Part shown: piece by piece, positions 603 through 25,704 of the stretch
How positions within the stretch are numbered: the stretch's first letter is position 1
How the letters are laid out: each line of letters begins with the position of its first letter
Source of the DNA: an uncultured beta proteobacterium
GTDB taxonomy: Bacteria; Pseudomonadota; Gammaproteobacteria; Burkholderiales; Burkholderiaceae_C
DNA: 33,804 nt
Direction of reading: 5' to 3'
Assembly (NCBI GenBank): GCA_903876715.1
Contig: CAIRBF010000384.1
Span: 1-33,804 of the forward strand
Program-made: the position numbers and the translations under genes
Notes under the pieces: generated by a model
What the model was told of the DNA's origin: nothing
Seen by the model: the letters and a program-made list of their open reading frames with translations, nothing else
Databases searched by the model: none

Positions 603-1856
603 TCAGCCCGCGATCAGCGGCTGGCCCCTCAGGGCCTGGATGAAGACGACGGCGACCAGGCCCGCATAGGCCAGGGCGGCGAACCTGACGGGAGCCTTCG
701 CCTCGGGGCCGAAGAGCCGGGCGCAGGCCAGGGCCGCAAGCGGGACGGCGTGCATTGCATGGGTGGCGAAGAAGTGGGCGGCACGCAGGTCGCCACCGTC
801 AAGCGACCAGCCCATGAGCCACAGGCCGCCGGCATCGCTGGCCGTGCCACCCACCCAGTGGCTGCCCATGCCCGACAGGGTCTGCGCCGTCACCAGGGTC
901 AGCGGCAGCGTGAGGCCGAGCCCCCAGACCAGCCCGGTGCGCACGGCAGCCGACAAGGCCCCGGCCGGGTGGCGGTGCACGGCCCAGGCCAGCGTCGCGC
1001 TGGCCGAGGTCAGCAGGATGGCCGCCACCCCCATGAACGAGTACAGCGCACCCGCGACCGGCGTGGCCTGGTTGAAGTGAGAGCCGGTCCCGAGGGTCGC
1101 CGCCCCGCCGATCCAGATCAACTCCAGGATCACGGCCACGACGACGCCGCGCTCGTGCCAGCGCCACCACGGCCGCGCCCTGAACTGCGGCGATGCGAAG
1201 CGGGCAAAGGCGGCCAGCGTGAGCAGGTAGATGACCAGGGCAGCGTGGAACTTCAGCGGCTTGATCCAGATGTTGATGCCCTGGAAGCGCCGCTCGTCGA
1301 TCAAGAAGGCCCCGAACAGGGGCAGCATGGCCAGCGCGAGCAGGACCGCCAGCCCCGTGTACCGCGGCGAGTCCGCCGCCAGGCGGGCCAGGGTGAAGCG
1401 TCCGGGGGCCGGGGAGCCTGGCGCCGCGGCCGGTGGGCGAGCGCCCCTGCGATGCGCGGCCCGCAGCAATTGGAAGAGCAGGTAGCCCGCCGGCCCGAAC
1501 AGGAAGGTGGCCAGCAGGCAGGGCAGCACGTGCAGGTGCGGGATGCCCTCGCGACGTGCGGTGCGCAACTGCCACGCACCCACCAGCAGGTCGAAAGCCA
1601 GGTAGTGCGCCCACCCCGCCAGCAGGAGCCAGCGGCTCTCGAACAACTGCTCCACCGACTGCAGGCTGTCGAAGCCCCCTTGGCCCGAACTCCAATGGCT
1701 CAGCACGATGGCGGCGTAGCCCCCGGAGAGCACCAGCGGGATGGCCACGCCCCCCACCACGCTCAGCGCCCGCGGCGCGAGCGGGCTCAGGCAGAGCGCG
1801 ATCCAACCCAGCAGCGCCAGCGAGTTGGCGGTCTGGAACAGGGCCTCAGGGCTCAT
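603..1856 (-). CDS. DUF4281 (ABA4-like) multi-pass membrane protein with C-terminal extension
   Basis: A 417-residue, strongly hydrophobic protein with about ten to eleven predicted membrane segments. The first 130 or so residues resemble the ABA4-like family (DUF4281): an N-terminal helix, a segment ending in SHWSSG, a HYLAFDLLVGAW motif and a LFGPAGYLLF motif. In plants ABA4 is needed for neoxanthin formation; the bacterial role is unknown. After an Ala/Pro-rich linker (about residues 136-155) a second hydrophobic half contains the segments INIWIKPLKF and GSHFNQ, which I cannot assign to a named family. The ATG at 1856 has only a weak ribosome site. It sits 35 bases after the MDR-type oxidoreductase gene, so co-transcription is likely. 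Confidence 0.75.
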   Translation of the reverse strand: MSPEALFQTANSLALLGWIALCLSPLAPRALSVVGGVAIPLVLSGGYAAIVLSHWSSGQGGFDSLQSVEQLFESRWLLLAGWAHYLAFDLLVGAWQLRTARREGIPHLHVLPCLLATFLFGPAGYLLFQLLRAAHRRGARPPAAAPGSPAPGRFTLARLAADSPRYTGLAVLLALAMLPLFGAFLIDERRFQGINIWIKPLKFHAALVIYLLTLAAFARFASPQFRARPWWRWHERGVVVAVILELIWIGGAATLGTGSHFNQATPVAGALYSFMGVAAILLTSASATLAWAVHRHPAGALSAAVRTGLVWGLGLTLPLTLVTAQTLSGMGSHWVGGTASDAGGLWLMGWSLDGGDLRAAHFFATHAMHAVPLAALACARLFGPEAKAPVRFAALAYAGLVAVVFIQALRGQPLIAG

Positions 1857-1891
1857 CGGTCAATCCCGTGACGGCGTTGCAGCAGCGCGGA

Positions 1892-2995
1892 TCATGGCGC
1901 CGATCCGGTACGTGTGCGCTCGGCGTCAGTGCCGATCGGCGACGCAAGGTCGAGCACGAGCCGGCCCTCGACCTGCCCCGCCTCGATCAGGCGGTGCGCC
2001 TCGACGGCCTCTTCCAGGCCGAAGACATGCTGGATGCGGGGTGCGATCCGGCCTGCCTCGAGCAGGCTGAACAGCGTGGAGAGATCGTCCTCGAAATCCT
2101 GAGGATGCCGCGTCCTGCGGCCCGAGATGTCGTAGAACGTGACCCGCCTCGACGCGCCCGATCGCAGGGACAGCGCCTTGATCCGCAGGAAGTCGAAGGC
2201 GAAGCGCAGCCGCGCGAACAAGCCTGGGCTCGCGTCGCCGGTCCTGTAGGCCTTGCGGAACGCGGCACTGAAGCCCAGCGCGACCAGACGACCGCCCGGC
2301 GCCAGGCGCGCCATGACCGAGGACAGCGCCTCCCCCCGGGCGGCGTCGAGGATGGCCTTGAAGCCGCCGTGCTCGCGCGACAGGCGGTCCAGCGTCCCGG
2401 ACGCGCCGGCCGCGTCGTAGGCGACGAAGGCCGCGCCCAGGCCGGTCACCGCAGGCTCGCGCCGCGCCGAGGCCACCCCGACCGCCGGCAGCCCGAAGGC
2501 GCGGCACAGGTCGAGCGCGGCCAGGCCCACGGCGCCGCTGGCGCCGTAGATCAGCACCGGATCGCCCGGCTTCGCCTCGGCTTCGCGAAAGAGCGCCTGA
2601 TAGGCGGTCAGGTAGCTCAGGATCAGCGGCTCCGCCTGCGTCGCGGCCAGCCCTGCCGGCACGGGGACGAGCATGGCCGCCGGGCGCACCACGTGCGTCG
2701 CGTTGCCGCCGGTCTGGCTCAGGTCGGCGACCCGGTCGCCGATGCGCCACCGCGTGACGCCCGGGCCGACGCCGTCGATGCGGCCGACGAGGTCGTATCC
2801 GAGGGTCAGCGGCAGGCGCAGCTTCAGGACGGGGTAGAGGTTCCTGCGGATCAGCATGTCGGTGAAGACCAGGCTCGAGGCCTCGACCCGGATGCGCACC
2901 TCGCCCGGGCCCGGCGCCGGCAGCGCCGCATCCTCCACCACCCGGATGACCTCGGGCCCGCCGAAGGCCCCGATCTCGAGCCGCCTGACCGCCAT
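1892..2995 (-). CDS. MDR-superfamily zinc-independent NADPH:quinone oxidoreductase-like enzyme
   Basis: A 367-residue medium-chain dehydrogenase/reductase. The N-terminal GroES-like domain (about 1-125) has the typical GPGEVRIRVEASSL segment and GYDLVGRIDGVG. The Rossmann domain (about 130-280) has YGASGAVGLAALDL as the nucleotide-binding loop. The cysteine cluster of structural zinc is absent, which fits the quinone oxidoreductase branch that reduces quinones or enones with NADPH. The frame stays open upstream to 3616, but the ATG at 2995 has GAGGG close by, begins the family homology and starts just after the DUF4386 gene ends. The substrate is not predictable. Confidence 0.88.
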   Translation of the reverse strand: MAVRRLEIGAFGGPEVIRVVEDAALPAPGPGEVRIRVEASSLVFTDMLIRRNLYPVLKLRLPLTLGYDLVGRIDGVGPGVTRWRIGDRVADLSQTGGNATHVVRPAAMLVPVPAGLAATQAEPLILSYLTAYQALFREAEAKPGDPVLIYGASGAVGLAALDLCRAFGLPAVGVASARREPAVTGLGAAFVAYDAAGASGTLDRLSREHGGFKAILDAARGEALSSVMARLAPGGRLVALGFSAAFRKAYRTGDASPGLFARLRFAFDFLRIKALSLRSGASRRVTFYDISGRRTRHPQDFEDDLSTLFSLLEAGRIAPRIQHVFGLEEAVEAHRLIEAGQVEGRLVLDLASPIGTDAERTRTGSAP

Positions 2996-3006
2996 GACCG
3001 ACGCCC

Positions 3007-3747
3007 TCACGCAGGTTGGCGCCAGGCGCGCCAGAGGAAGAGGACCCCGAGCGCCATGAACCAGAGCTGGATCGCCGTCGTGGACAGCACGATCGAGACG
3101 GGCGGTGCGATGCCGAAGAGCTCGAGCGCGGGCAAGGCGACCAGGCTGCCGGCGAGCAGCCCCGTCAGGCCCGCCCAGGCCGGCAACTGCCGCTCGCGCA
3201 GGATCAGCAGGCCGGTGGCCACGGCCCAGATCGCGGCGAAGGCCGCGACGCCCAGGTTCTCGCCGATGGCGCCGCCCCAGGCGTTGACGGCGGCCTGCAC
3301 GGCCTCGATCGCGGCGCGGCCTTCCGCCGACAGGCCGGGGACGGCATGGGCCTCGGCCAGCACCACGCTGCCGGTCAGCCAGCGCAGGATGCCGATCGCC
3401 CGCGCCAGCGCCGAGACCGCGGCCGCGCCGATGGCGATGAGCGCCAGCGCCCCGAGCGGGCCGCGCCGGGCCGCCAGGCGCACGGTCAGGACGCCGGTCA
3501 CGAGGAAGAGCAGCGAGTAGCCCAGGTAGAGCCCGTAGCCCAGGCGCACGGCGTCGAGCTGCTCCCGCAGCAGCGGCAGCATCTTCGAAGGCGGATAGTC
3601 CAGGCTGTCCGGCCACTGGATCGCGGCGCCGAGCACGGCCATGGGCGCGAAGAGGCTGAATCCCTGGACGAGCAGGACCAGCCCGGCCGCCAGCAGCAGG
3701 CCGCGGGATGGCGTGGCGTGGTCAGGGGAAACGTCGCGTGGTGACAT
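3007..3747 (-). CDS. DUF4386-like integral membrane protein
   Basis: A 246-residue protein with about six membrane helices. The arrangement (helix, a hydrophilic stretch including PPSKMLPLLREQLDAVRLGYGL, then paired helices with a GENLGVAAFA segment) matches the DUF4386 family of uncharacterised bacterial membrane proteins. The ATG has CGGAG seven to eight bases upstream. Its end is 11 bases before the oxidoreductase start, and its start is 40 bases after the lipoprotein hydrolase, so all three are probably one transcript. No biochemical function is known for the family. Confidence 0.72.
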   Translation of the reverse strand: MSPRDVSPDHATPSRGLLLAAGLVLLVQGFSLFAPMAVLGAAIQWPDSLDYPPSKMLPLLREQLDAVRLGYGLYLGYSLLFLVTGVLTVRLAARRGPLGALALIAIGAAAVSALARAIGILRWLTGSVVLAEAHAVPGLSAEGRAAIEAVQAAVNAWGGAIGENLGVAAFAAIWAVATGLLILRERQLPAWAGLTGLLAGSLVALPALELFGIAPPVSIVLSTTAIQLWFMALGVLFLWRAWRQPA

Positions 3748-3787
3748 GAAGGGCTCCGAAGGCTGGGGAGGTCGTGCCGCGGCGGCG

Positions 3788-5083
3788 TCACGGCCGGCGC
3801 GGACGGGTCGCCGCCGCCTCGCGGTGGTGGCCGTCGATCCGGTTCAGGAACTCGCCGATCCGGCGCTCCAGGTCCGGGTAGTGCGGGTTGAAGGTCGCCC
3901 GGGCGCCGGCCTCGCCGGGCGGAGGCGACTGCCCGCCGACGCCGTACCAGACCTGCCGCGCCTGCTTGCAGGACCGGACCTCCTCTTCCGTGCGAAACGG
4001 GGGGCTGCCGCAGTTGCGGTAGGCGCCCGTCACGCCGTAGTGCGGGTTGTCAGGCGCGATGTGCACCGCGAGATGGGAGAGCCCCACCACGCGCAAGGCC
4101 TCATCGGCCGCGGGCAGCCAGATCACACGGTCGCTGGATGCGTCCTCGGGCGACTTGGAGTGGTAGTTGAGGAAGAGGCTGCGCGGATCGCCGGCATTCG
4201 CCTCGAAGAAGCGCCGGTTGGCGGCGACGTCGACGACCTCGTCGTCCTCGCTCTGGACGACCAGCCAGGGGGTGCGCACCGCGCCTTGACGCCTGACGCG
4301 AGCCTCCATCCGGCCGAGCGCCGCCATCGTGGAGGCGATACCGTGGGTCGGCATGGCCCCGTAGCGCGCGAAATCCTCGCGCGGCCCCAGGTCCAGCCAC
4401 GGGCGGAAGGCCGCCACCCATCGGGCCTGCCGCGCCAGGAAGTTCGAGCGCAGCCGGTAGGCCGGCGACAAGCCGATGACCGCATCGACCTTGTCGGGCG
4501 ACTCGGCGGCGACGGCGAGCGCGAGCGCGGCGCCGAGGGAGAAGCCTGCGAGCACGACGACGTCATGCTCGCGACCGGCCTGCGTGACCGCCGCCCCGAC
4601 GTGAGCCAGCCAGTCCCGGTGATCGACGGCCCTCAGGTCCGCGGGGCGTGTGCCATGCCCCGGGAGCAGGAGCACGCGGGACTCGAAGCACAGCCCCGAA
4701 AGCGAACCCGCGAGATCGCGCATGGCGAATGCAGTGTCGGACAAGCCGTGGACAAGGACCGCGATGCCGCGGGGCGCCCCTGCCGTGCATCCCGGGCCCG
4801 GCGGGATGCGGAAGGGCGCCACCGAGGCCAGCTCGGCGTCTGCCGCCGCGGCATCGAAGGGCAGACGGTGGACGCGCAGTTCACGGGCCACGTCCGCGAC
4901 GTAGGCATCGAAATCCGCAGCAGGCGCGAGCGCTGCGGGATCACTCCAGCCACTGCGTGCAAGTTCCGGCGGGGCCGCCATCGTCCCGGTCGAGGTGCAG
5001 CCGGACAGGAACGCGGACAGGAGCAGCCCGGCGAGGAGGGCAGGCACGCAGCGTCCGATGGATCGTCGGTATCGAATCGACAC
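3788..5083 (-). CDS. Alpha/beta-hydrolase lipoprotein (serine esterase/lipase-like)
   Basis: A 431-residue exported hydrolase. The N-terminus has basic residues, a hydrophobic stretch and the lipobox LSGC, so a lipid-anchored envelope protein is predicted. The hydrolase fold shows VHGLSDTAFAMRDLA (oxyanion region), the nucleophile elbow GFSLG with Ser182, a likely acid in QSEDDEVVD and a C-terminal His in GLSHLAVH. The start is uncertain: GTG at 5083 gives a compact signal peptide directly, while ATG at 5137 would add 18 residues in front of it; neither has a strong ribosome site. It is the first gene of the minus-strand run down to position 1. The substrate is unknown; a carboxylesterase role is the plain reading. 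Confidence 0.8.
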   Translation of the reverse strand: MSIRYRRSIGRCVPALLAGLLLSAFLSGCTSTGTMAAPPELARSGWSDPAALAPAADFDAYVADVARELRVHRLPFDAAAADAELASVAPFRIPPGPGCTAGAPRGIAVLVHGLSDTAFAMRDLAGSLSGLCFESRVLLLPGHGTRPADLRAVDHRDWLAHVGAAVTQAGREHDVVVLAGFSLGAALALAVAAESPDKVDAVIGLSPAYRLRSNFLARQARWVAAFRPWLDLGPREDFARYGAMPTHGIASTMAALGRMEARVRRQGAVRTPWLVVQSEDDEVVDVAANRRFFEANAGDPRSLFLNYHSKSPEDASSDRVIWLPAADEALRVVGLSHLAVHIAPDNPHYGVTGAYRNCGSPPFRTEEEVRSCKQARQVWYGVGGQSPPPGEAGARATFNPHYPDLERRIGEFLNRIDGHHREAAATRPRRP

Positions 5084-5546
5084 GGATAGCACCCGGAGAC
5101 TTGGCACCCATGATCTTCCTTCGGAGGGGAAGACCATGACAAGCCATGCCGTTGCATGGCCGCCATGCGGATTTGGAGGGGCAGATGACAGCGCAACTGG
5201 TTGGACCATGTCATCCCGCACGAGCGGGTGCGGGTCCAGACACGTGACCGCAAGCGGCCGGGACGGCTGTCCCGTCACTTCACCCGCGCAGCGGATGACA
5301 CGGCTGCTGACGGCCTGCGCGCCAGGCCCTGCCAGGGTCGCCTCCGGCCACGGGCGCGGCTCGCGGGCTTCTGCCGGGCGCATGCACTCGCCCCAGAGCA
5401 TCGACGGGCCGCGGCGCGGAGACCTGCGCGTACGTCCGCGAAACATCTCGATACACGGCGATACCGCCGCGAAAGGACGGCTCCCCAGGGCATCGGCAGG
5501 ATGCAGGCCTGTCAACACCAACGGGCAAGCGCCCAAGGAGTCGTTC
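5084..5546. other. Divergent intergenic region, no gene recognised
   Basis: This 463-base region separates the minus-strand lipoprotein hydrolase from the plus-strand Spy-like gene and must hold both promoters. Frames run through it on both strands but resemble no protein. Two structures are visible. A hairpin (GCCATGC, four-base loop, GCATGGC) lies at 5143-5160, upstream of the hydrolase start. Two CGATAC repeats at 5449-5454 and 5459-5464, exactly ten bases apart, precede the Spy-like gene. I could not place convincing -35 and -10 boxes. Confidence 0.5.
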
Positions 5547-15948: not shown

Positions 15949-16929
15949 TCAATCCGCCTTGATGCCGTTGTCGCGGATCACCTTGCCCCAGACGTCGACC
16001 TGGGCCTCGAGGAAGCTGCGCGCGGCCTCGGGCGAGCCGGTGAAGACCTCGATGCCCTGGCCGGCCAGGCGCTGCGCCACCTCGGGCTGGCGCAGCACGG
16101 TGTTCAGCGCCTCGTTCATCTGGCGCACCACCTCCGGCGGCGTGCGCGCCGGCGCCAGCACCGCCCACCAGGCCGGTGCGTCGAAGCCGGCGAAGCCGCT
16201 CTCGGCGATCGTCGGCACCTCGGGCAGGGCCGCCGAGCGCTGGCTCGTCGTCACGGCCAGCGGGCGCAGGCGCCGGCTGTCCAGGTGCGGCTTGATCAGG
16301 AAGACCGAGCCGATGCTCACCGGCACGTGGCCGGCCAGCGCGTCGTTCATCAGCGGGCCGCCGCCCTTGTAGGGCACGTGCACGAAGTTCAGGCCGCTGC
16401 CCTTGGCCAGCAGCGCCATCGACAGGTGGCCGAGGCTGCCCGAGCCGATGGTGCCGTAGCTGACGCCGCGGGCCGCGCGCGCCGCGGCCACGGCGTCGCC
16501 GAAGGTCTTGAAGGGCGAGTCGGGGTGCGCGGCGATGACCATCGCGCTCGTGCCCAGCAGCGCCACGGGCGGCAGGTCGCGCTTGGTGTCGTAGGGCAGG
16601 CCGGGCAGCAGCGCCGGCAGCGAGGCGTGGCTGTCGAACACGACGGCGAAGGTATAGCCGTCGGGCGGCGAGGCCGTCACCGCCGCGGCGCCGATCGAGC
16701 CCGAGGCGCCGCCCCGGTTCTCCACCACCACGGTCTGGCCGAGCAGGCGCTGCAGCGCCGGCTGCAGGATGCGCGCGACCTGGTCCACCGAGCCGCCGGG
16801 CGGGAACACGGCGACGAGCTTGATGGGCTGGGCGCGGGGCCAGGGCATGGCCTGGGCCCAGGCGAAGGCGGCGGGCAGTAGCAGGCTGGCGGCCAGCGCG
16901 AGGGCGCACAGGGCTCGGCGTGTGGTCAT
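15949..16929 (-). CDS. Bug/TctC-family periplasmic solute-binding protein
   Basis: A 326-residue receptor with a cleavable signal peptide (hydrophobic 8-24, cleavage near AWA). Family signatures: the strand and loop LVAVFPPGGSVDQVARIL, VVVENRGGASGSIGA, PDGYTF, HVPYKGGGPLMNDALAGHV and the C-terminal helices. Such proteins bind small carboxylates or amides with high affinity and normally hand them to a TctAB permease, but no tctAB lies nearby. The ATG has CGGAGGA directly upstream. It is first of a two-gene unit with the M20 amidohydrolase, which hints that the ligand is that enzyme's substrate. Confidence 0.93.
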   Translation of the reverse strand: MTTRRALCALALAASLLLPAAFAWAQAMPWPRAQPIKLVAVFPPGGSVDQVARILQPALQRLLGQTVVVENRGGASGSIGAAAVTASPPDGYTFAVVFDSHASLPALLPGLPYDTKRDLPPVALLGTSAMVIAAHPDSPFKTFGDAVAAARAARGVSYGTIGSGSLGHLSMALLAKGSGLNFVHVPYKGGGPLMNDALAGHVPVSIGSVFLIKPHLDSRRLRPLAVTTSQRSAALPEVPTIAESGFAGFDAPAWWAVLAPARTPPEVVRQMNEALNTVLRQPEVAQRLAGQGIEVFTGSPEAARSFLEAQVDVWGKVIRDNGIKAD

Positions 16930-17112
16930 GAAATCCTCCGGAGCCGGAAAGGCCGGCGGCGCAGTGTGCGCCAGGCCTGCGGCCGTGAACAGTGTTGGGG
17001 CGCGAATCCGAGCGCGGGTGGCGGCTTTCGACGTACACAAGCCGCGGGCCGGCTGCGTACGGCCCGGCGCGACCGTTAGCATCACCGCCATACACCGGCC
17101 CGCCAACGCTCG

Positions 17113-17988
17113 ATGACACAGCCCACACCTTGGCCCGCCCTGAGCGAAGCCCGCCGTCGCACGCGCCCACGCCGCCACTTCGTCATCGACGACGAGACCG
17201 TCGGCAGCGTCGACGAGGCGCACCTGCCAGCGCTCGCGCGCTGGCCCGCAGCCCTGGCCGTAGGGCCGAATGCGGTGCGGCTGCGCCTGCCTCGCGCCGA
17301 GCGCGATGACTGGTTCGCCGAGGCCAACGCCGCGCTGCGCGCCGACGGCCTGGTGCAGGCCTGGCGCGACGAGCCGTTCGCGCTGCCCTCGCCCGCCAGC
17401 GGCCGTACGCTGGCCGTCATCGAGCGCGCCGCCTCGCGCTTCTGGGGCACGCTCACGCTGGGCACGCACTGCAACGGCTGGGTGGCCGGGGCTGACGGCC
17501 GGCCGGCACAGATGTGGATCGCGCGCCGCTCGCCGCACAAGCCCACCGACCCCGGCAAGCTGGACAATCTGGTGGGGGGCGGCGTGCCGCACGGCCAAAG
17601 CCCCTGGGAGGCCCTGCTGCGCGAGGGCTGGGAAGAGGCCGGCCTGCCACCGCAGCGCATGGCGCAGGCCCGGCCCGGCCGGGTGCTGCAGTTGTGCCGC
17701 GACATCCCCGAGGGCCTGCAGTTCGAGCGCCTGCACGTCTACGACCTCGAACTGCAGCCAGGTGAACAGCCCGTCAACCAGGACGGCGAGGTCGCGGGCG
17801 TGGAACTGCTGACTTGCGCGCAGGCGGGGCAGGCCGCCGCCGGGCAGGAGATGACGGTGGACGCGGCGCTGGTGACGCTGGACTTCCTGCTGCGGCACGC
17901 CCTGCTGCCCGACGCCGATGCCCGTGTGCAGGCGGCCTTCACCACCTGTCTGGTCCACGTCAACACGGAGCCACCGCATGGGCGGTGA
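17113..17988 (+). CDS. DUF4743 / Nudix hydrolase
   Basis: A 291-residue protein. The first 120 or so residues match the DUF4743 domain; the C-terminal two thirds are a Nudix hydrolase. The Nudix box is GGVPHGQSPWEALLREGWEE followed by AGL; the essential REGWEEAGL part is intact, but the Glu usual at the middle of the box is Gln, which also occurs in this subfamily. Plant relatives hydrolyse damaged thiamine diphosphate. The substrate here is inference only. It is a single gene, divergent from the Bug/M20 pair and followed by the TRAP operon. Confidence 0.9.
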   Translation: MTQPTPWPALSEARRRTRPRRHFVIDDETVGSVDEAHLPALARWPAALAVGPNAVRLRLPRAERDDWFAEANAALRADGLVQAWRDEPFALPSPASGRTLAVIERAASRFWGTLTLGTHCNGWVAGADGRPAQMWIARRSPHKPTDPGKLDNLVGGGVPHGQSPWEALLREGWEEAGLPPQRMAQARPGRVLQLCRDIPEGLQFERLHVYDLELQPGEQPVNQDGEVAGVELLTCAQAGQAAAGQEMTVDAALVTLDFLLRHALLPDADARVQAAFTTCLVHVNTEPPHGR

Positions 17989-18091
17989 GCGAGCGCAAAG
18001 GTGCCCGTCGCCGACACGCCGCGACGCCCGAGCACTCGGGTTTACCCACTTGTCTTTTTCGCTGGACCGCGCAATATTCGCGCGCTCGCGC

Positions 18092-18104
18092 TTGTCCTGG
18101 ACAA
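18092..18104. promoter_or_regulatory. Inverted repeat TTGTCC-T-GGACAA upstream of the TRAP operon
   Basis: A perfect 6+1+6 inverted repeat 64 bases before the dctP start, with a further GTCC half-site at 18114-18117. It lies in the 180-base leader between the Nudix gene and dctP, which holds no other gene. Its form resembles operators of GntR/FadR-type regulators, but no such regulator is in the window. Confidence 0.4.
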
Positions 18105-18168
18105 ATTCAGGGCTGTCCAAGCTTGCGCGTCACCGATCTCGCCACTTCCTCCCCATAGGAGAACTTCC

Positions 18169-19308
18169 ATGACCGTGAAGACCCAGACCGCGCCGCAGCG
18201 CCGCGGCTTCCTGAAGACCGCCTCGGCCGGTGCCATCGGCGCCGCCGCCGCCGCCGCACCGATGGTCAGCAACGCGCAGACCGTCAACCTGCGCTTCCAG
18301 AGCACCTGGCCGGCCAAGGACATCTTCCACGAGTTCGCCAACGACTTCGCCAAGAAGGTCAACGACATGGCCGGCGGCCGCCTGAAGATCGAGGTGCTGC
18401 CCGCCGGCGCCGTCGTGCCGGCGTTCCAGTTGCTCGAAGGTGTGTCCAAGGGCACGCTGGACGGCGGCCACGGCGTGCTGGTCTACCACTACGGCAAGAA
18501 TTCGGCGCTCGCGCTGTGGGGTTCGGGCCCGTCCTTCGGCATGGACTCCAACATGCTGCTGGCCTGGCACAAGTACGGCGGTGGCGAGGCCCTGCTGCAG
18601 GAGGTCTACAAGAGCATCAACGTCGACGTCAAGTCCTACGTCTACGGCCCGATGCCCACGCAGCCTCTGGGCTGGTTCAAGAAGCCGATCGCCAAGTCCG
18701 CCGACCTCAAGGGCGTGAAGTTCCGCACCGTCGGCATCGCGGTGGACGTCTTCACCGACATGGGTGCGGCCGTCAACCCGCTGCCCGGCGGTGAGATCGT
18801 CCCGGCGCTGGACCGCGGCCTGATCGACGGCGCGGAGTTCAACAACGCCACCTCCGACCGCATCCTGGGCTTCCCTGACGTGGTCAAGAACTGCATGCTG
18901 CAGAGCTTCCACCAGAGCAGCGAGCAGTTCGAGATCATGTTCAACGGTCCGAAGTACCGTGAGCTGCCGGCCGAGCTGCGCGCCATCATCGACCACGCCG
19001 TCGAGGCCTCGAGCGCCGAGATGAGCTGGAAGATGATCGACCGCAACTCCAAGGACTACATCGACCTGAAGAAGGGCGGCATCAAGTTCTACAAGACGCC
19101 TGACGCCATCCTGCGCGAACAGCTCGTCGCCTACGACAAGGTGGTCGCGAAGAAGTCGGCCGAGAACGCGCTGTTCAAGAAGGTCATCGAGTCGCAGCGC
19201 GCCTTCGCCGAGCGTGCCGGCTCCTGGCAGAACGACTACTCGGTCGACATGAAGATGGCGTGGAACCACTACTTCCGCAAGCCGGCTGCGCCGGCCAAGA
19301 AGGCCTGA
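18169..19308 (+). CDS. dctP: TRAP transporter substrate-binding subunit (DctP/TakP-like)
   Basis: A 379-residue periplasmic receptor. The N-terminus has a Tat signal (RRGFLKTASAG then an Ala-rich hydrophobic stretch, cleavage near SNA), so it is probably exported folded. The mature protein shows the DctP pattern: STWPAKDIFHEFANDFAKKV, AGGRLKIEVLPAGAVVP, LKGVKFRTVGIAVDVFTDMG with the carboxylate-binding Arg, and GGEIVPALDRGLIDGAEF. The closest described relatives by pattern are TakP-type receptors for 2-oxoacids. The start at 18169 has AGGAGA upstream and gives the expected signal length. The small and large membrane subunits follow after an intercistronic terminator. Confidence 0.93.
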   Translation: MTVKTQTAPQRRGFLKTASAGAIGAAAAAAPMVSNAQTVNLRFQSTWPAKDIFHEFANDFAKKVNDMAGGRLKIEVLPAGAVVPAFQLLEGVSKGTLDGGHGVLVYHYGKNSALALWGSGPSFGMDSNMLLAWHKYGGGEALLQEVYKSINVDVKSYVYGPMPTQPLGWFKKPIAKSADLKGVKFRTVGIAVDVFTDMGAAVNPLPGGEIVPALDRGLIDGAEFNNATSDRILGFPDVVKNCMLQSFHQSSEQFEIMFNGPKYRELPAELRAIIDHAVEASSAEMSWKMIDRNSKDYIDLKKGGIKFYKTPDAILREQLVAYDKVVAKKSAENALFKKVIESQRAFAERAGSWQNDYSVDMKMAWNHYFRKPAAPAKKA

Positions 19309-19340
19309 TCCGCCCGTCATCGGGTCTTTGTCCGCGCAAG

Positions 19341-19375
19341 GGGCCATCGCCGAGGCGATGGCCCTGTTTTCTTTT
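19341..19375 (+). terminator. Intrinsic terminator between dctP and dctQ
   Basis: A perfect 10-bp stem (GGGCCATCGC and GCGATGGCCC) with a CGAG loop at 19341-19364 is followed by the T-rich tract TGTTTTCTTTT. It begins 32 bases after the dctP stop and ends 12 bases before the dctQ start. Partial termination here would give more receptor than membrane subunits, as is common for binding-protein operons. Confidence 0.85.
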
Positions 19376-19387
19376 CATGGGGACCAC

Positions 19388-20008
19388 ATGCAACAGTGGC
19401 TGCTCAGGGTCGACCGCCTGTCGACCTGGCTGGGCCAGGCCTTTGCCTGGACCATCGTCATTCTCACGCTGGGCATCACCGGAGAGGTGTTTGCGCGCTA
19501 CGTGCTGAACGAACCGCACGATTGGTCGCTGAACGGCCAGATCATGCTCTACGGCACGCTGTTCATGATGGCCGGCGCCTACACGCTGGCCAAGAACAAC
19601 CACGTGCGCGGCGATGTCCTCTATGGCTTCTTCGAGCCGCGCACCCAGGCCTGGATCGACCTGGTGCTCTACATCCTGTTCTTCCTGCCCGGCATAGTCG
19701 CGCTGACCTGGGCCGGCTGGACCTACGCCAACGAATCGCTGGCCATCCGCGAGAAGACCTTCTCCGCCACGCCGCTGCCGCTGTACCCCTTCAAGTTCGT
19801 GATCCCCTTCGCCGGCGGCCTGCTGCTGCTGCAGGGCTTCGTCGAGATCGTGCGCTGCGCGCAATGCATCCGCGCCGGTGAATGGCCGTCGCGCGAGGAA
19901 GACGTCGAGGAGGTCGACGTCGAAAAGCTCAAGGAGATGGTCAAGGTCAAGGACGAAGACATCGCCGCGCTCGACAAGTTCGTCATGCCCGCTGGAGGTT
20001 CCAAGTGA
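19388..20008 (+). CDS. dctQ: TRAP transporter small membrane subunit
   Basis: A 206-residue protein with the four-helix DctQ topology: helices at about 17-37, 50-70 (with GQIMLYGTLFMMAGAYTLA), 90-112 and 130-150, the conserved HVRGDVLYGFF segment after helix two, and a long charged C-terminal tail (about 155-206). It forms a complex with DctM that drives sodium-coupled uptake of the ligand held by DctP. The start is placed at ATG 19388 because the earlier ATG at 19359 lies inside the terminator stem. Its end overlaps dctM by four bases (GTGA). Confidence 0.9.
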   Translation: MQQWLLRVDRLSTWLGQAFAWTIVILTLGITGEVFARYVLNEPHDWSLNGQIMLYGTLFMMAGAYTLAKNNHVRGDVLYGFFEPRTQAWIDLVLYILFFLPGIVALTWAGWTYANESLAIREKTFSATPLPLYPFKFVIPFAGGLLLLQGFVEIVRCAQCIRAGEWPSREEDVEEVDVEKLKEMVKVKDEDIAALDKFVMPAGGSK

Positions 20009-22326
20009 AGCTGAAACTGCGCAGGGAACTCTGGTTCGGCTTCAGCCTGATGGCGCTGATCATCGCGGGCACCGCGGTGATGCTGCTTTCAGCTGACAAG
20101 CTCAGCACCGGCCACCTCGGGCTGATGATGCTCGCGCTCGTCGTCGTGGCCATCATGCTGGGCTTCCCCACGGCTTTCACGCTGATGGGCATGGGCATGA
20201 TCTTCACCTGGCTTGCCTATGAGCGCAGTGTCACCAAGACGCTGGACCTGATGGTGCAGTCGGCCTTCAAGGTGATGAGCAACGACGTGCTGATCTCGAT
20301 CCCGCTGTTCGTCTTCATGGGCTACCTGGTCGAACGCGCGAACCTGATCGACAAGCTCTTCCGCAGCCTGCACCTGGCGCTGGCGCGGGTGCCGGGCTCG
20401 CTGGCCGTGGCCACGCTGTTCACCTGCGCGGTCTTCGCCACGGCCACCGGCATCGTCGGCGCCGTGGTCACGCTGATGGGGCTGCTGGCGCTGCCGCAGA
20501 TGCTCAAGGGCGGCTATGACATCAAGCTGTCGGCCGGCGTCATCACGGCCGGCGGCTGCCTGGGCATCCTGATCCCGCCCTCGGTGATGCTGATCGTCTA
20601 CGGGGCCACGGCCGGCGTGTCGGTGGTGCAGCTGTATGCGGGCGCGTTCTTCCCGGGCCTGATGCTGGCTGGCCTGTACATCCTCTATGTGATCCTGGTG
20701 GCCAAGATCAAGCCCAGTCTTGCCCCACCCCTGTCGGCCGAGGCCAGGCACGTGGAGCTGCCGCCCGAGCTGGCGGCGTTGAAGGCCCGCGTCTCGCGCT
20801 TTGCGCTGCCAGCCCTGCTGGTGGGCGCGCGCACGGACAAGGGCCTGCGCAAGCAGTTGCTGATCGTACTGATGCCGGCGTTGCTGGTGGCTTCGGTCGC
20901 CGTCATCGCCTGGCGGCTCGATGCCGGGCCGAAGCCAGAGGCCGCCGCGCCTGCGGCGGCTGACGTCGCGGCGCCAGGGGGCAGCGTGCAGGAACCCCCG
21001 GTCGCGGCGGGCGCCCAGGAACCCGCAGGCGGCGGTGTGAAAGAGCCCCCGGGCAGTTCGGGCGGCGTGCAGGAACCCGCTGGCAGCGGCGGTGGCGTGC
21101 AGGAACCGCCCGGCAGCGGTGGCGGCGTCCAGGAGCCCCCCGGCAGTGGTGATGGCGTGCAGGAGCCCCCCGGCAGTTCCAGCGGCGTGCAGGAGCCTCC
21201 GGGGAGTGCTGGTGTCCAGGAGCCGCCAGCCGCCGGTGGTGTGCAGGAGCCTCCGGGCGCCACTGCCGCGGCTGGCCCGGCCGGCGGATCCGGCGTCCAG
21301 ACGCCCGCGGGCGCCGCGGTGGCCGCCAGCCAGGCCGCGGTCGCCCAGGCCGGCGCGGCAGCAGCCCCGCCTCCAGCCTCGCACGGCCTGAGCTCGACCT
21401 ACTGGATCGGGCTGGGCGCGGGTGCGGCGGCGCTGGTGGTGCTGTATGGGCTGATGACCTTCGAGCGCTTCATCATCTTCAAGCTGCTGCTGTCGAGCTT
21501 CTTTCCGCTGATGGTGCTGATCCTGGCCGTGCTCGGATCCATCGTCTTCGGCCTGGCCACACCCACCGAGGCGGCTGCGGTCGGAGCCTTCGGCGGCTAC
21601 CTGCTGGCGGCCATCTACGCCGTGCACGCGCGGCGCGACGACCGCTGGCGCGTGTTCGGCATCTGGCTGCTGATGTGGGCGCCGGCCCTGGTGTGCATCG
21701 GCTGGTTCGTGCTGCACACCGACCAGGTGGTGGCTGAGCCGGTGCCGATGGCCCTGGGCGGGGTGGCCTTGCTCGGTGTGCTCGGCTGGGCGCTGCTGGC
21801 CTACCGACAGGCCAAGCTCAGCAACGAGGTCAACGAGTCGGTCAAGCTCACCGCCAAGACCAGCGCCATGGTGTGCTGGCTCTTCGTCGGCTCGGCCATC
21901 TTCTCGGCCGCCTTCGCGCTGCTGGGCGGGCAGGAGCTGGTCGAGAAGTGGGTGATGTCGATGAACCTCACCAAGACCGAGTTCCTGATCCTGAGCCAGG
22001 CCATCATCTTCATCCTCGGTTGGCCGCTGGAGTGGACCGAGATCATCGTGATCTTCATGCCCATCTTCATCCCGCTGCTGGACAACTTCGGCGTCGACCC
22101 GCTGTTCTTCGGCCTGCTGGTGGCGCTGAACCTGCAGACGGCCTTCCTGAGCCCGCCGGTGGCGATGGCAGCCTTCTACCTCAAGGGCGTGAGCCCGCCG
22201 CACGTGACGTTGAACCAGATCTTCGCCGGGATGCTGCCCTTCATGGGCATCCAGATCTTCGCCATCGTGCTGCTGTACAACTTCCCGGCGATCGGCATGT
22301 GGCTGCCACAGGTGCTGTACCGGTGA
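20005..22326 (+). CDS. dctM: TRAP transporter large membrane subunit with proline-rich repeat insertion
   Basis: A 773-residue permease, much longer than the usual 425-450. The start is GTG at 20005 with GGAGG six bases upstream, overlapping the dctQ stop. The N-terminal half (about 25-250) is normal DctM: GFPTAFTLMGMG, SIPLFVFMGYLVER, ATGIVGAVVTLMGLLALP, GGCLGILIPPSVMLIVYG. A normal C-terminal half resumes with GLATPTEAAAVGAFGGYLLA and ends with LGWPLEWTEIIVIFMPIF and LQTAFLSPPVAM. Between them lie two extra hydrophobic segments (about 289-310 and 470-490) enclosing a Pro/Gly/Glu repeat (about 326-436), and further added helices at about 545-600. All essential family motifs are present, so it is probably functional. 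Confidence 0.92.
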   Translation: MKLKLRRELWFGFSLMALIIAGTAVMLLSADKLSTGHLGLMMLALVVVAIMLGFPTAFTLMGMGMIFTWLAYERSVTKTLDLMVQSAFKVMSNDVLISIPLFVFMGYLVERANLIDKLFRSLHLALARVPGSLAVATLFTCAVFATATGIVGAVVTLMGLLALPQMLKGGYDIKLSAGVITAGGCLGILIPPSVMLIVYGATAGVSVVQLYAGAFFPGLMLAGLYILYVILVAKIKPSLAPPLSAEARHVELPPELAALKARVSRFALPALLVGARTDKGLRKQLLIVLMPALLVASVAVIAWRLDAGPKPEAAAPAAADVAAPGGSVQEPPVAAGAQEPAGGGVKEPPGSSGGVQEPAGSGGGVQEPPGSGGGVQEPPGSGDGVQEPPGSSSGVQEPPGSAGVQEPPAAGGVQEPPGATAAAGPAGGSGVQTPAGAAVAASQAAVAQAGAAAAPPPASHGLSSTYWIGLGAGAAALVVLYGLMTFERFIIFKLLLSSFFPLMVLILAVLGSIVFGLATPTEAAAVGAFGGYLLAAIYAVHARRDDRWRVFGIWLLMWAPALVCIGWFVLHTDQVVAEPVPMALGGVALLGVLGWALLAYRQAKLSNEVNESVKLTAKTSAMVCWLFVGSAIFSAAFALLGGQELVEKWVMSMNLTKTEFLILSQAIIFILGWPLEWTEIIVIFMPIFIPLLDNFGVDPLFFGLLVALNLQTAFLSPPVAMAAFYLKGVSPPHVTLNQIFAGMLPFMGIQIFAIVLLYNFPAIGMWLPQVLYR
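20980..21312 (+). repeat. Coding tandem repeat: about 11 units of GVQEPPGSx in DctM
   Basis: A 30-base unit encoding roughly GVQEPPGSGG is repeated about 11 times, with units of 8 to 18 residues. The middle units are most regular and nearly identical in DNA (from about 21064 to 21230), while the edges are degenerate (SVQEPPVAA, GAQEPAGG, GVKEPPGSSG at the start; GVQTPAG at the end). The reading frame is kept throughout. It looks like expansion by slippage or unequal crossover of an originally shorter Pro-rich linker. Confidence 0.9.
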
Positions 22327-22431: not shown

Positions 22432-23358
22432 TCAACCCTGGCGCGGCAACGCCAGTTCCGGCCCGTCGTAGTCGGTCTGCGGCTCCACCTCGCCGCGCAG
22501 CAAACGCTGCTGCCAGGACGCGAGCGCAGCGCCATGCTCGGCCTGCAGCGCCGAGGTCATCACCAGACGCACGCAATCGGGAGACTCCAGGCCGTGGGTA
22601 CGCGCAGTGCCCGGGGCCAGCCGACCGGTCGTGAAATCCTCCACGGCCTCGGTCACGCCGCGCCCGGAGTCGGCGATGGCCGAGGCGACGAAGACCGCCG
22701 GGTCGCGCACCACCCAGTCCAGCACGTTGCCGATCTGACGCAGCGGGCCCTCGCGGCAGGCGCGGTTCACGCCCTCGCGCCCGCCGTCGATCATCGCGAA
22801 CACGAGGTCGGCACCCTCGCGCTCCAGCGCCCGCGCCGTGGCGTAAGCCAGGTCCACATCATGCTGGGCGCCGCAAAAGCTGGTGACGAAGCGGCAGTCG
22901 GGCGCCGCGGCGCGCACGCCGTGCGCGAAGGCGGCGCGGCCCTTCAGGCCCGGACGCACCTTCTCGCCCGACAGGTGGCCGACGACGCGCGTCTTCGACG
23001 CCAGGCCCGCCAGCACGCCGGCCAGGAAGGCTGACTGCTCCTGCAGCACCTCGTAGCAGGCGACATTGGGGGCGAGGAAGTGGCCCTGGGTGATGGCGAA
23101 ACGGGTGTCGGGGAATTCGGACGCGATGGCGCCCACTGGCGCATCGCCCTGGCCCCCGTGGGCCACCAGCAGATCCAGCCCGCGGCGGCACAGCGCGCGC
23201 AGCGCCTCGGCCCGCCCGGCGGCGTCGGGGGGCGCGATCCAGTGCACGTCCAGGGCGTGACCGCCCGCGCGCGCGCGCAGCGCGCCTTGCAGGCCGGATT
23301 CGTTGAAGCTGCCCCGGCCCTCCGGCCCGAACAGCGCCACCGCGATGCGCGCGCTCAC
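22432..23358 (-). CDS. BMP/PnrA-type binding protein without a signal peptide
   Basis: A 308-residue protein of the basic membrane protein (PF02608) type, relatives of which bind nucleosides or purines for ABC transporters. Family features: GRGSFNESGLQGAL near the start, ARGLDLLVAHGGQG-like segment (here RRGLDLLVAHGGQG), DTRFAITQGHFLAPNVACYE, QSAFLAGVLAGLASKTRVVGHL and DLVFAMIDGGREGV. The protein begins directly with the first beta strand (VSARIAVALFGPEG), so there is no signal peptide or lipobox and it should stay in the cytoplasm. The GTG start overlaps the Bug gene stop by four bases, so the two are translationally coupled. No ABC transporter genes lie nearby. A cytoplasmic sensing role is possible. 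Confidence 0.8.
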   Translation of the reverse strand: MSARIAVALFGPEGRGSFNESGLQGALRARAGGHALDVHWIAPPDAAGRAEALRALCRRGLDLLVAHGGQGDAPVGAIASEFPDTRFAITQGHFLAPNVACYEVLQEQSAFLAGVLAGLASKTRVVGHLSGEKVRPGLKGRAAFAHGVRAAAPDCRFVTSFCGAQHDVDLAYATARALEREGADLVFAMIDGGREGVNRACREGPLRQIGNVLDWVVRDPAVFVASAIADSGRGVTEAVEDFTTGRLAPGTARTHGLESPDCVRLVMTSALQAEHGAALASWQQRLLRGEVEPQTDYDGPELALPRQG

Positions 23359-24332
23359 AGCTTCGCGCCGCTGGCGCGCACCACCGGTGCCCAGCGCTCG
23401 GCCTGTTCCTGGATGAAGGCGGCGAAGGCCTCGGGGCTGCGGGCCTCGAGCTCGAAGCCCTGGGCCTCGAGCTTGCCGCGCAGGTCGGGCAGGGCCAGCA
23501 CCTGGTTCAAGGCGCGCAGCAGCGCCTGCTCCACCGCAGCCGGCAGCCCTGCGGGGGCCGAGACGCCAACGAAGTTCTCGGCCACGAGCTCGGGATGGCC
23601 GAGCTCGACCACCGTGGGCAGGTCGGGGGCCTGCGCCACCCGACGTGCCGCCGTCACCGCCAGCAGCCGCAGCTGCCCGGACTTGCGCAGCGGCAGGTTC
23701 TGCGGCAACGCGTCGACGGCCACCTTGATCTGGCCGCCGAGGAGGTCGCTGCGCATCGGGCCGGCCCCCTTGTAGGGCACGTGCATCATCTTCAACCCGG
23801 CCTTCTGGGCCAGCAGCTCGCCGACGATGTGGCCGACCGACGCCTGGCCGCCACTGCCGAAAGGCACCGGGTCCTTCTGGGCGCGCGCCCAGGCCACGAA
23901 GCCGGCGAAATCGTTCACCGGCAGCGACGGGTGGACCGCCAGCACGGTCGGCACGTCGCCCACGTAGGCCAGGTGGCGAAAGCTCTTCAGCGGGTCGTAC
24001 AGGGGGCGGTCGAACAGCGCCGGCGAGATCGACAGCGGCGCGGAGTTCGACATCAGCAGCGTGTAGCCGTCGGGCTGGGCGCGCGCCACGGCAGCCGCGC
24101 CGATGGTCGCGGCGCCGCCGGGGCGGTTGTCCACCACCACGGCCTGGCCCAGGCGCTCGGCCAGCGGCGGGGCGATCAGGCGCGCGACGATGTCGCTGGC
24201 GCCCCCGGGCGGGAAGGTCACGACCAGTTTGACGGCCTGGGCAGGCCAGCCCTGGGCATGCGCCCGGGATGCGGCCAGCGAGGCCGCCCACGGGGCGGCT
24301 GCCAGGGCCAGTGCTTGACGACGGCGGATCAT
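23355..24332 (-). CDS. Bug/TctC-family periplasmic solute-binding protein
   Basis: A 325-residue receptor with a signal peptide (MIRRRQALALAAAPWAASLA, cleavage near AHA) and the family segments VVTFPPGGASDIVARLIA, VVVDNRPGGAATIGA, PDGYTLL, HVPYKGAGPMRSDLLGGQ and TVVELGHPE. The ATG at 24332 has AAGGAGCG seven bases upstream, inside the gap after the CWC gene. It lies between a cysteine-rich CWC protein and the BMP-type protein, overlapping the latter. The ligand is unknown; no TctAB permease is present in the window. Confidence 0.93.
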   Translation of the reverse strand: MIRRRQALALAAAPWAASLAASRAHAQGWPAQAVKLVVTFPPGGASDIVARLIAPPLAERLGQAVVVDNRPGGAATIGAAAVARAQPDGYTLLMSNSAPLSISPALFDRPLYDPLKSFRHLAYVGDVPTVLAVHPSLPVNDFAGFVAWARAQKDPVPFGSGGQASVGHIVGELLAQKAGLKMMHVPYKGAGPMRSDLLGGQIKVAVDALPQNLPLRKSGQLRLLAVTAARRVAQAPDLPTVVELGHPELVAENFVGVSAPAGLPAAVEQALLRALNQVLALPDLRGKLEAQGFELEARSPEAFAAFIQEQAERWAPVVRASGAKL

Positions 24333-24726: not shown

Positions 24727-25704
24727 TCAGTCGACCTTCGTCCCCGTGAGCTTGACCACCCGCGCCCACTTGTCCATCTCGGCGCGGACGAAGCCGGCGA
24801 ACTCCTGGGGTGTCGAGCTCACGGCCTCGACGTCGATGTTCCTCATCGCCGTGCGGTAGCCGGGGTCGCGCGCGGCCTTCACGAGTTCGGCGTTGAGGCG
24901 CTCGACGATGGGTGCGGGTGTGCCGGCCGCCACGAACAGCCCGGTCCAGCTGTCCACCTGGTAGCCGGGCAGGCCGGCCTCGGCGAAGGTGGGCAGGTCG
25001 GGCAGGGTCGGCCAGCGGCGGCTGCCGGAGTTGGCGATCGCCCGCACCTTGCCGGTCTTGGCCAGGGTGACGGCGTTGGTCACCGTCTCGATCATCATCG
25101 ACACATTGCCTGCCAGCAGGTCGGCCGAGGCGGCGCCGCCGCCCTTGTAGGGCACGTGCAGCAGGTCGATCTGGGCCGTGGTCTTGAGCAGCTCGGTGGC
25201 CAGGTGCGAGATCGAGCCGTTGCCGGCCGAGGCGTAGCTGAGCTTGCCCGGGTTCGCCTTCGCGTAGCGGATCAGGTCCTGCAACGACTGGATCGGCAGC
25301 GACGCGTTGACGATCAGCACGCTCGGGTTGAGCGCCAGCACGGACACCGGCAACAGGTCGCGCGCGGCGTCGACCGGCAGGTTCTTGAACAGCACCGGGG
25401 CCACGCTGTTCGTGCCGATGGTGCCGTACAGCAGCGTGTGGCCGTCGGCGGGCGCCGACACCACGGCCTGCATCGCGGGGCCGCCGCCGCCGCCGGGCCG
25501 GTTCTCGACGATGACCTGGGCGTTCATCTGCTCGGCCAGCTGCTTGCCCAGGGCGCGCGCCATGATGTCGGAGGAACCGCCGACCGCGAACGGCACGATG
25601 ATGCGGATGGGCTTGGAGGGGTAGGACTGTGCGCGCGCGGAGTCGAGGGGGAGCGTCGCGCCCGCGCCCATGGCCAGCAGTCCCAGAAGCAGCTGTCGTC
25701 TCAT
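24727..25704 (-). CDS. Bug/TctC-family periplasmic solute-binding protein
   Basis: A 325-residue receptor with a signal peptide (MRRQLLLGLLAMGAGATLPL, cleavage near ARA) and the family motifs RIIVPFAVGGSSDIMARAL, VIVENRPGGGGGPAM, DGHTLLYGT, HVPYKGGGAASADLLAGN and PTFAEAGLPGY. The ATG overlaps the stop of the FAD monooxygenase gene by four bases, so the two are translationally coupled, and the receptor's ligand is probably the monooxygenase substrate or a precursor of it. No membrane partner is present. Confidence 0.94.
   Translation of the reverse strand: MRRQLLLGLLAMGAGATLPLDSARAQSYPSKPIRIIVPFAVGGSSDIMARALGKQLAEQMNAQVIVENRPGGGGGPAMQAVVSAPADGHTLLYGTIGTNSVAPVLFKNLPVDAARDLLPVSVLALNPSVLIVNASLPIQSLQDLIRYAKANPGKLSYASAGNGSISHLATELLKTTAQIDLLHVPYKGGGAASADLLAGNVSMMIETVTNAVTLAKTGKVRAIANSGSRRWPTLPDLPTFAEAGLPGYQVDSWTGLFVAAGTPAPIVERLNAELVKAARDPGYRTAMRNIDVEAVSSTPQEFAGFVRAEMDKWARVVKLTGTKVD

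Follow-up and report, generated by a model that had tools for sequence, protein, structure and literature searches.

What could a proline-rich repeat do inside the membrane subunit of a solute importer? The window, i.e., the whole stretch of 33,804 nucleotides analyzed here, contains such a repeat in the large membrane subunit of a TRAP transporter. The way in which binding proteins are recruited by TRAP permeases is, to our knowledge, unsettled, as is the purpose of dimeric ones such as TakP. Based on Pfam matches, DctM is encoded in one operon with DctQ and DctP:

18169..19308, + strand: DctP, TakP-type TRAP substrate-binding protein (PF03480, 1.6e-34)
19328..20008, + strand: DctQ, small TRAP subunit (PF04290, 1.2e-24; start codon provisional)
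20005..22326, + strand: DctM, large TRAP subunit, 773 amino acids (PF06808, 1.2e-65, in two stretches)

The dctM gene starts with a GTG codon (20005-20007) that overlaps the stop codon of the DctQ gene, and its own stop codon is at 22324-22326, in agreement with the length of about 773 residues given in the original prediction. The residue numbers below follow P0001, which is DctM minus its first residue, and are hence one lower. The DctM profile PF06808 scored 222.5 bits (cut-off 23.8), split into two stretches, and the insert lies between these, that is, between the two halves of the protein. NCBIfam TIGR00786 matched in three stretches with 248 bits, below its cut-off of 268.45, a score that was probably lowered by the insert. 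In the window's own genome (G000, 5.6 Mb), the DctM profile matched 29 times, corresponding to about 27 genes. Elsewhere in the window, the products of 23355-24332 and 24727-25704 (both - strand) and the C-terminal part of that of 15949-18120 (- strand) presumably resemble Bug-type binding proteins of tripartite tricarboxylate transporters; the one of these that was searched had no NCBIfam match. Within dctM, the following parts were distinguished:

20839..20925, + strand: extra transmembrane helix A, predicted to run from cytoplasm to periplasm (residues 278-306; AlphaFold2, hydropathy)
20926..21393, + strand: disordered acidic tether, predicted to be periplasmic (residues 307-462; pLDDT, charge)
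20983..21312, + strand: repeat array of about 11 G-V-Q-E-P-P-G-like units (TRF, relaxed register, shuffles)
21394..21450, + strand: extra transmembrane helix B, predicted to run from periplasm to cytoplasm (residues 463-481; AlphaFold2, hydropathy)
21607..21825, + strand: second accessory hydrophobic hairpin, separate from the tether (residues 534-606; alignment)

The original prediction had placed about 11 repeat units at 20980..21312, and in a relaxed register 11 were indeed found at about 20983-21312, starting at residues 327 to 430 with spacings of 9, 8, 10, 10, 10, 10, 10, 9, 9, and 18. Eight units fit the strict pattern (V/L/I)-x-E-P-P, while shuffling that segment 20,000 times gave on average 0.03 strict units and three at most. 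TRF reported two arrays, 21028-21208 (period 30, 6.0 copies, 76% matches) and 21187-21265 (period 27, 2.9 copies, 71% matches). The central units had also been described as nearly identical in DNA. This did not hold, as three comparisons between neighbouring equal-length central units gave identities of 80, 77, and 67%, and among the 11 units the 18-bp cores averaged 77% (61-94%) with synonymous codons mixed. An origin of the array by recent slippage copies is ruled out by the 67-80% DNA identity of the central neighbours. An assembly artefact is unlikely as well, since L001, a separate MAG at 93% identity, has nine strict units. Nor is the repeat a genome-wide element: with up to three mismatches, the unit pattern had 278 and 266 matches in the window's genome and 280 and 296 in the reversed control. 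Exact matches to the unit core in the same genome were limited to three in the array and one on contig C84, the latter an isolated VQEPPG of an unrelated protein. Of the eight sites on other contigs with at most one mismatch, none was observed in tandem (C84 being the one read).

The structure of DctM was modeled by AlphaFold2 with 69 sequences. The quality of the whole model was moderate (mean pLDDT 68.3, pTM 0.55), with parts of the core below 60. Both extra helices were modeled with pLDDT blocks of 90-93, falling to 72 at the end of helix A, and residues 312-455 had a pLDDT below 50, so the tether is predicted to be disordered. In the model, the helices flank an unstructured repeat in the region for which a topology prediction had been proposed (residues 280-500), and together with the split profile they bear out the earlier description of a Pro/Glu/Gly tether that lies between two extra hydrophobic segments and between the DctM halves. 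The best 19-residue hydropathy was at least 1.76 for helix A and at least 1.39 for helix B in all 90 insert-bearing proteins. A fold search with the model gave, at E up to 0.001, six TRAP chains and nothing else; their TM-scores ranged from 0.32 to 0.34 by query and from 0.39 to 0.53 by target, for a model with core parts of pLDDT below 60.

On which side of the membrane does the tether lie? In the window it has 156 residues and a net charge of -11. Among the insert proteins its length is 75-203 residues and its mean net charge -11.2, negative in 90 out of 90, and the loop before helix A has a mean net charge of +5.1. The pseudosymmetric halves of DctM are inverted. DctM is described as two pseudosymmetric halves (PMC9352664) and the N-terminus of canonical DctM as periplasmic (PMC5812351). 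From the loop charges, the pseudosymmetric halves, and the periplasmic N-terminus we infer that the tether is periplasmic and the junction of the two halves cytoplasmic. As the two extra helices would make the repeat a periplasmic loop, it need not space the DctM halves, which was one of the roles originally offered.

To find out how widespread the insert is, species-representative genomes were scanned, and 189 loci were confirmed, of which the best 80 were kept. According to their titles, these relatives were mostly Comamonadaceae, Rubrivivax, Ramlibacter, and their kin, with some unplaced Proteobacteria or uncultured organisms and one named Nitrosomonadaceae. The insert, as a segment of 143-263 residues with similar units, was present in 80 out of these best 80 of 189 loci, a figure biased towards insert-bearers because two of the six search peptides lay in or beside the insert. 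A fairer sample was made up of 90 genomes of the order. Among the 27 that matched at E 1e-60 or better, 14 had the helix pair and the tether, nine were insert-free, and one, L143, had by eye the helix pair joined by a short, repeat-free loop; the remaining three (G096, G138, and G160, with open frames of 452, 489, and 602) were left unread. Of 56 genomes across the class, two matched at E 1e-60, the window's own and an insert-free one. Between fixed motifs, 98-100 residues were counted in the six insert-free proteins measured versus 261-297 in the nine insert-bearing ones.

A core tree of 112 proteins was built with the insert columns removed; the partial proteins L016, L017, L026, L036, and L071, as well as L114, were left out. 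In this tree 89 of the 90 insert-bearers formed one clade (support 0.977) with the insert-free L099 as its sister (0.963), surrounded by other lines lacking the insert. The exception, L109, fell outside the main clade and paired with L143 (1.0), with a node of 0.66 joining it to insert-free DctMs. With insert-free homologues surrounding the insert clade, the sequences suggest that the insert was gained. The early branches of the clade mostly carry few repeats, with 0-5 EPP in 14 of the 15 looked at and 16 in L027. The insert is, by sequence comparison, a conserved feature of a Burkholderiales subfamily, found in many Burkholderiales. The original prediction had named a common insertion of constant length, already characterized, as the finding that would speak against it. 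The insertion proved common, its length varies, and no description of such a DctM insertion was found among the titles and abstract openings listed in a literature search. The kind of transporter is already known, and the helix pair with its EPP repeat is the new part.

The second insertion in DctM, about 72 residues long, is a hydrophobic hairpin located after a PTEAAA motif and before the next canonical helix. It was found in 25 of the 112 aligned proteins, while nearly all others have nine residues at this place. As it also occurs in early branches (L127-L129, L133, L023, and L027), it points to repeated loss or recombination.

How strongly is the repeat motif kept? Position -3 was L or V in 93% and position -1 was E in 90% of the 541 isolated Pro-Pro sites, which came from 89 proteins, and the Pro-Pro was followed mostly by G, A, or S and then by a free spacer. 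The unit number, which the original prediction had proposed to compare across related genomes, differs between close species: the residues between fixed columns numbered 240 in the window versus 229 in L001, and 215 in L011 versus 205 in L012. Fourteen close pairs were picked by hand to compare substitutions. At motif positions no amino-acid change was seen in 11 of the 14 pairs, at 0.07-0.83 synonymous differences per site, a result that is partly built in because the alignment sets motif on motif. The spacers changed more than the motif in all 14 pairs. In all 14, the synonymous difference was also higher in the tether than in the core, most extremely for L019 and L036 (0.62 vs. 0.07). Seventy genes had at least four strict units, with five-codon cores averaging 74% identity; their 161 neighbouring equal-length units had a mean DNA identity of 71%. 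Seven of the 161 pairs, in six genes (L008, L017, L019, L038, L067, and L077), were at least 90% identical, indicating that duplication goes on in the relatives. The earlier idea of recent expansion therefore holds for some relatives and not for the window, where the units have diverged and the insert is shared with all the relatives kept. In our reading, these sequences probably reflect units that turn over while selection keeps the motif.

The same numbers bear on another explanation, that of a neutral low-complexity spacer, in which slippage resizes a loop that need only be hydrophilic. The fast change in unit number fits such a spacer, as do the unit pairs with at least 90% DNA identity in six of 70 genes, the two insert-bearers without any EPP (L028 and L108), and the excess of synonymous difference in the tether, which is expected under unit turnover. 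On the other hand, a loop of this kind does not account for L/V and E each being kept in at least 90% of the sites, over 89 proteins and next to positions that vary, nor for a tether that is net negative in every insert-bearer. We therefore regard the neutral spacer as unlikely. Even if the repeat were a mere spacer, it would still be a clean case of array turnover with the protein motif kept.

Alternatively, the motif could act during translation. Ribosomes would be slowed at PPG, PPA, or PPS between the two halves, the first half would be inserted ahead of the synthesis of the second, and EF-P would ease the pause. In coherence, most of the 461 EPP units in 76 proteins continue with G (264), A (104), or S (53), and PPG is reported as an EF-P-dependent pause motif for which upstream residues matter (PMC4140641). 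However, in one third of the units the ending is PPA or PPS, not PPG, and the same study gives significant pausing without EF-P at only 2.8% of PPX motifs (PMC4140641). Insert-free relatives exist, and pacing predicts neither the acidity of the tether nor its covariation with DctP described below, so that we consider it improbable. It is also conceivable that the function resides in the two extra helices, as stator support or oligomer contact, and that the repeat is incidental. L143, with its two such helices and short loop, is an example of this arrangement, but the conservation of the motif, the charge, and the presence of at least one EPP in 88 of the 90 insert-bearers make this explanation hardly credible.

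DctP of the window carries a Tat-like signal, and its C-terminal tail is basic. The last 12 residues of DctP have a net charge of +2 to +5 (mean 3.1) in 89 out of 89 insert systems, compared with -1 to +2 (mean 0.7) in 14 insert-free systems, and 23 of the 89 insert tails have +2, which equals the insert-free maximum. The distant paralogues L110, L112, L113, and L114 (tails +1, +2, +1, and +3) were excluded from the insert-free group, and L143 (tail +2) from both groups. The charge of mature DctP was +4.1 with the insert (n = 88) and +0.8 without it (n = 18, L143 and three distant paralogues being counted here as insert-lacking). Since the insert systems form one DctP clade, the tail difference may reflect a single ancestral event.

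Independent contrasts, spanning six traits against tether charge, were calculated for 86 systems. On the DctM tree, tether and DctP charge were related with r about -0.45; none of 5000 sign flips gave a value as large, 49 contrasts were negative and 17 positive, and without the five largest r was -0.34 (p = 0.0003). The corresponding values were -0.03 for DctQ, 0.18 for the DctM core (p = 0.09), and 0.07 for the cytoplasmic loop. Within DctP, the body without its tail was weakly related to the tether (r = -0.22, p = 0.04), and the 14-residue tail gave -0.34 (p = 0.004). On the DctP tree the relation was weaker (r = -0.31, p = 0.024; 38 negative and 29 positive signs), with p = 0.053 when five contrasts were removed, and rank correlation of the contrasts gave p = 0.065 on the DctM tree and 0.013 on the DctP tree. 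Uncorrected, tether charge also tracked the charge of the DctM core (rho 0.30, p = 0.006), and tail charge alone was not robust against the tether (rho -0.06 for 12 residues, -0.38 for 14). Neither the EPP count (rho -0.14, p = 0.19) nor the insert length (rho 0.008) correlated with DctP charge.

A single case adds to this relation. In G017, a genome of the same genus as the window, the best match to the window DctM was L109 (E 1.5e-72), a DctM whose matches in other genomes share 50-63% identity with it. L109 carries a helix pair like that of the main clade, with GLQEPPG units, on a DctM core of another lineage. Its operon (1481-5442) encodes a DctP 74% and a DctQ 59% identical to those of the window, and the DctP falls in the tether-type DctP clade, with weak placement within that clade (0.24-0.95). 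Thus, in this one case, the tether has kept company with this type of DctP despite a different DctM core.

We take FcbT and COG4663-4665 to be the group names for TakP-type TRAP transporters. The relatives of DctP in the PDB were 4yzz, 7ug8 (ketoacid-binding), and 2hzk (TakP). A profile of DctPs matched 2hzk at 6.2e-52 over residues 2-347 of the 365 in the chain, so that the match enters the swapped C-terminal helix of the TakP dimer. TakP is reported to form a dimer by helix swapping and to bind 2-oxoacids together with a cation, and the authors of that study propose the C-terminal extension as a mark of the dimeric family (PMC1839085).

Taken together, the sequences and models favor, with a little less than an even chance, the repeat being a putative multivalent periplasmic tether that captures DctP. 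The repeats would act as a series of weak docking sites along an acidic, extended, and flexible chain, and this chain would catch the basic DctP, presumably dimeric by homology to TakP. Capture would raise the DctP concentration at the surface of DctQM, where the tethered DctP could hand over its substrate and rebind without diffusing away. The fuller version, in which a dimeric binding protein is held by a multivalent acidic disordered (L/V)-x-E-P-P tether with the sites tuned by repeat turnover, we propose more tentatively. Among the roles offered originally, binding of a partner is the best supported by sequence and remains putative.

The tether might instead serve another envelope partner, such as a peptidoglycan-associated protein, porin, protease, or chaperone, or provide a TonB-like periplasmic reach. 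Motif conservation would fit any partner, and the charge tie to DctP is incomplete. The tether length also lies within the range of TonB domain II, given as 40-245 with a median of 113 (PMC12204202). Against reach, a loop anchored at both ends would extend about half as far as a free tail. The gene neighbourhood offers little for another partner. Beyond DctP and overlapping frames, every neighbour cluster was confined to fewer than half of the 80 loci, of which 75 include more than 1.5 kb of downstream sequence. The best downstream cluster, in 25 of the 80 loci, was an icmF-like gene (fused isobutyryl-CoA mutase) on the same strand as dctM. The covariation with DctP and the L109 pairing would stay unexplained as well. 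We thus consider a different partner possible and rather doubtful, and prefer DctP as the candidate partner of the tether.

The icmF-like open frame starts 42-1520 bases downstream of dctM (for example 6385-9600 in L003), and one member was identified by profile (1848.8 bits, cut-off 1500). By analogy with TakP, the substrate of the importer is probably a 2-oxoacid or similar monocarboxylate, and the icmF neighbour combined with the TakP ligands tentatively suggests an oxoacid or acid with a short or branched chain.

Conserved within one subfamily and variable in length, the tether provides a direct handle on the recruitment of TRAP binding proteins, as this type of operon occurs with 0 to 16 EPP units, with the helix pair alone (L143), and without any insert. 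If docking is true, a repeated linear motif would be at work in the bacterial periplasm as a short-linear-motif system.

In comparison with known systems, the window operon is most like TakPQM of Rhodobacter sphaeroides in its DctP-DctQ-DctM order and in the DctP profile match to TakP, while the helix pair and the EPP repeat set it apart from the TakP type, the TakM sequence being outside this comparison. The DctM protein matched five distinct PDB sequences, those of SiaQM (7qha, 7qe5, 8thi, and 8y4w) and IseQM (9pym), which were also the top fold matches; in the alignments with 9pym and 7qha the halves adjoin without such an insert, unlike in the window DctM. TonB and TolA resemble the tether in being Pro-rich, variable in length, periplasmic, and anchored in the inner membrane (PMC12204202). 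Unlike in these proteins, the repeat is an internal loop between two DctM helices with no C-terminal domain of its own, so the layout of an N-terminal helix, a Pro-rich middle, and a globular C-terminal domain is not that of DctM. In the ABC importers OpuA and GlnPQ, linked binding domains are likewise reported to stay beside the translocator (PMC11065425, PMC8025302). There the link is covalent, whereas the link proposed here by analogy for DctP would be non-covalent.
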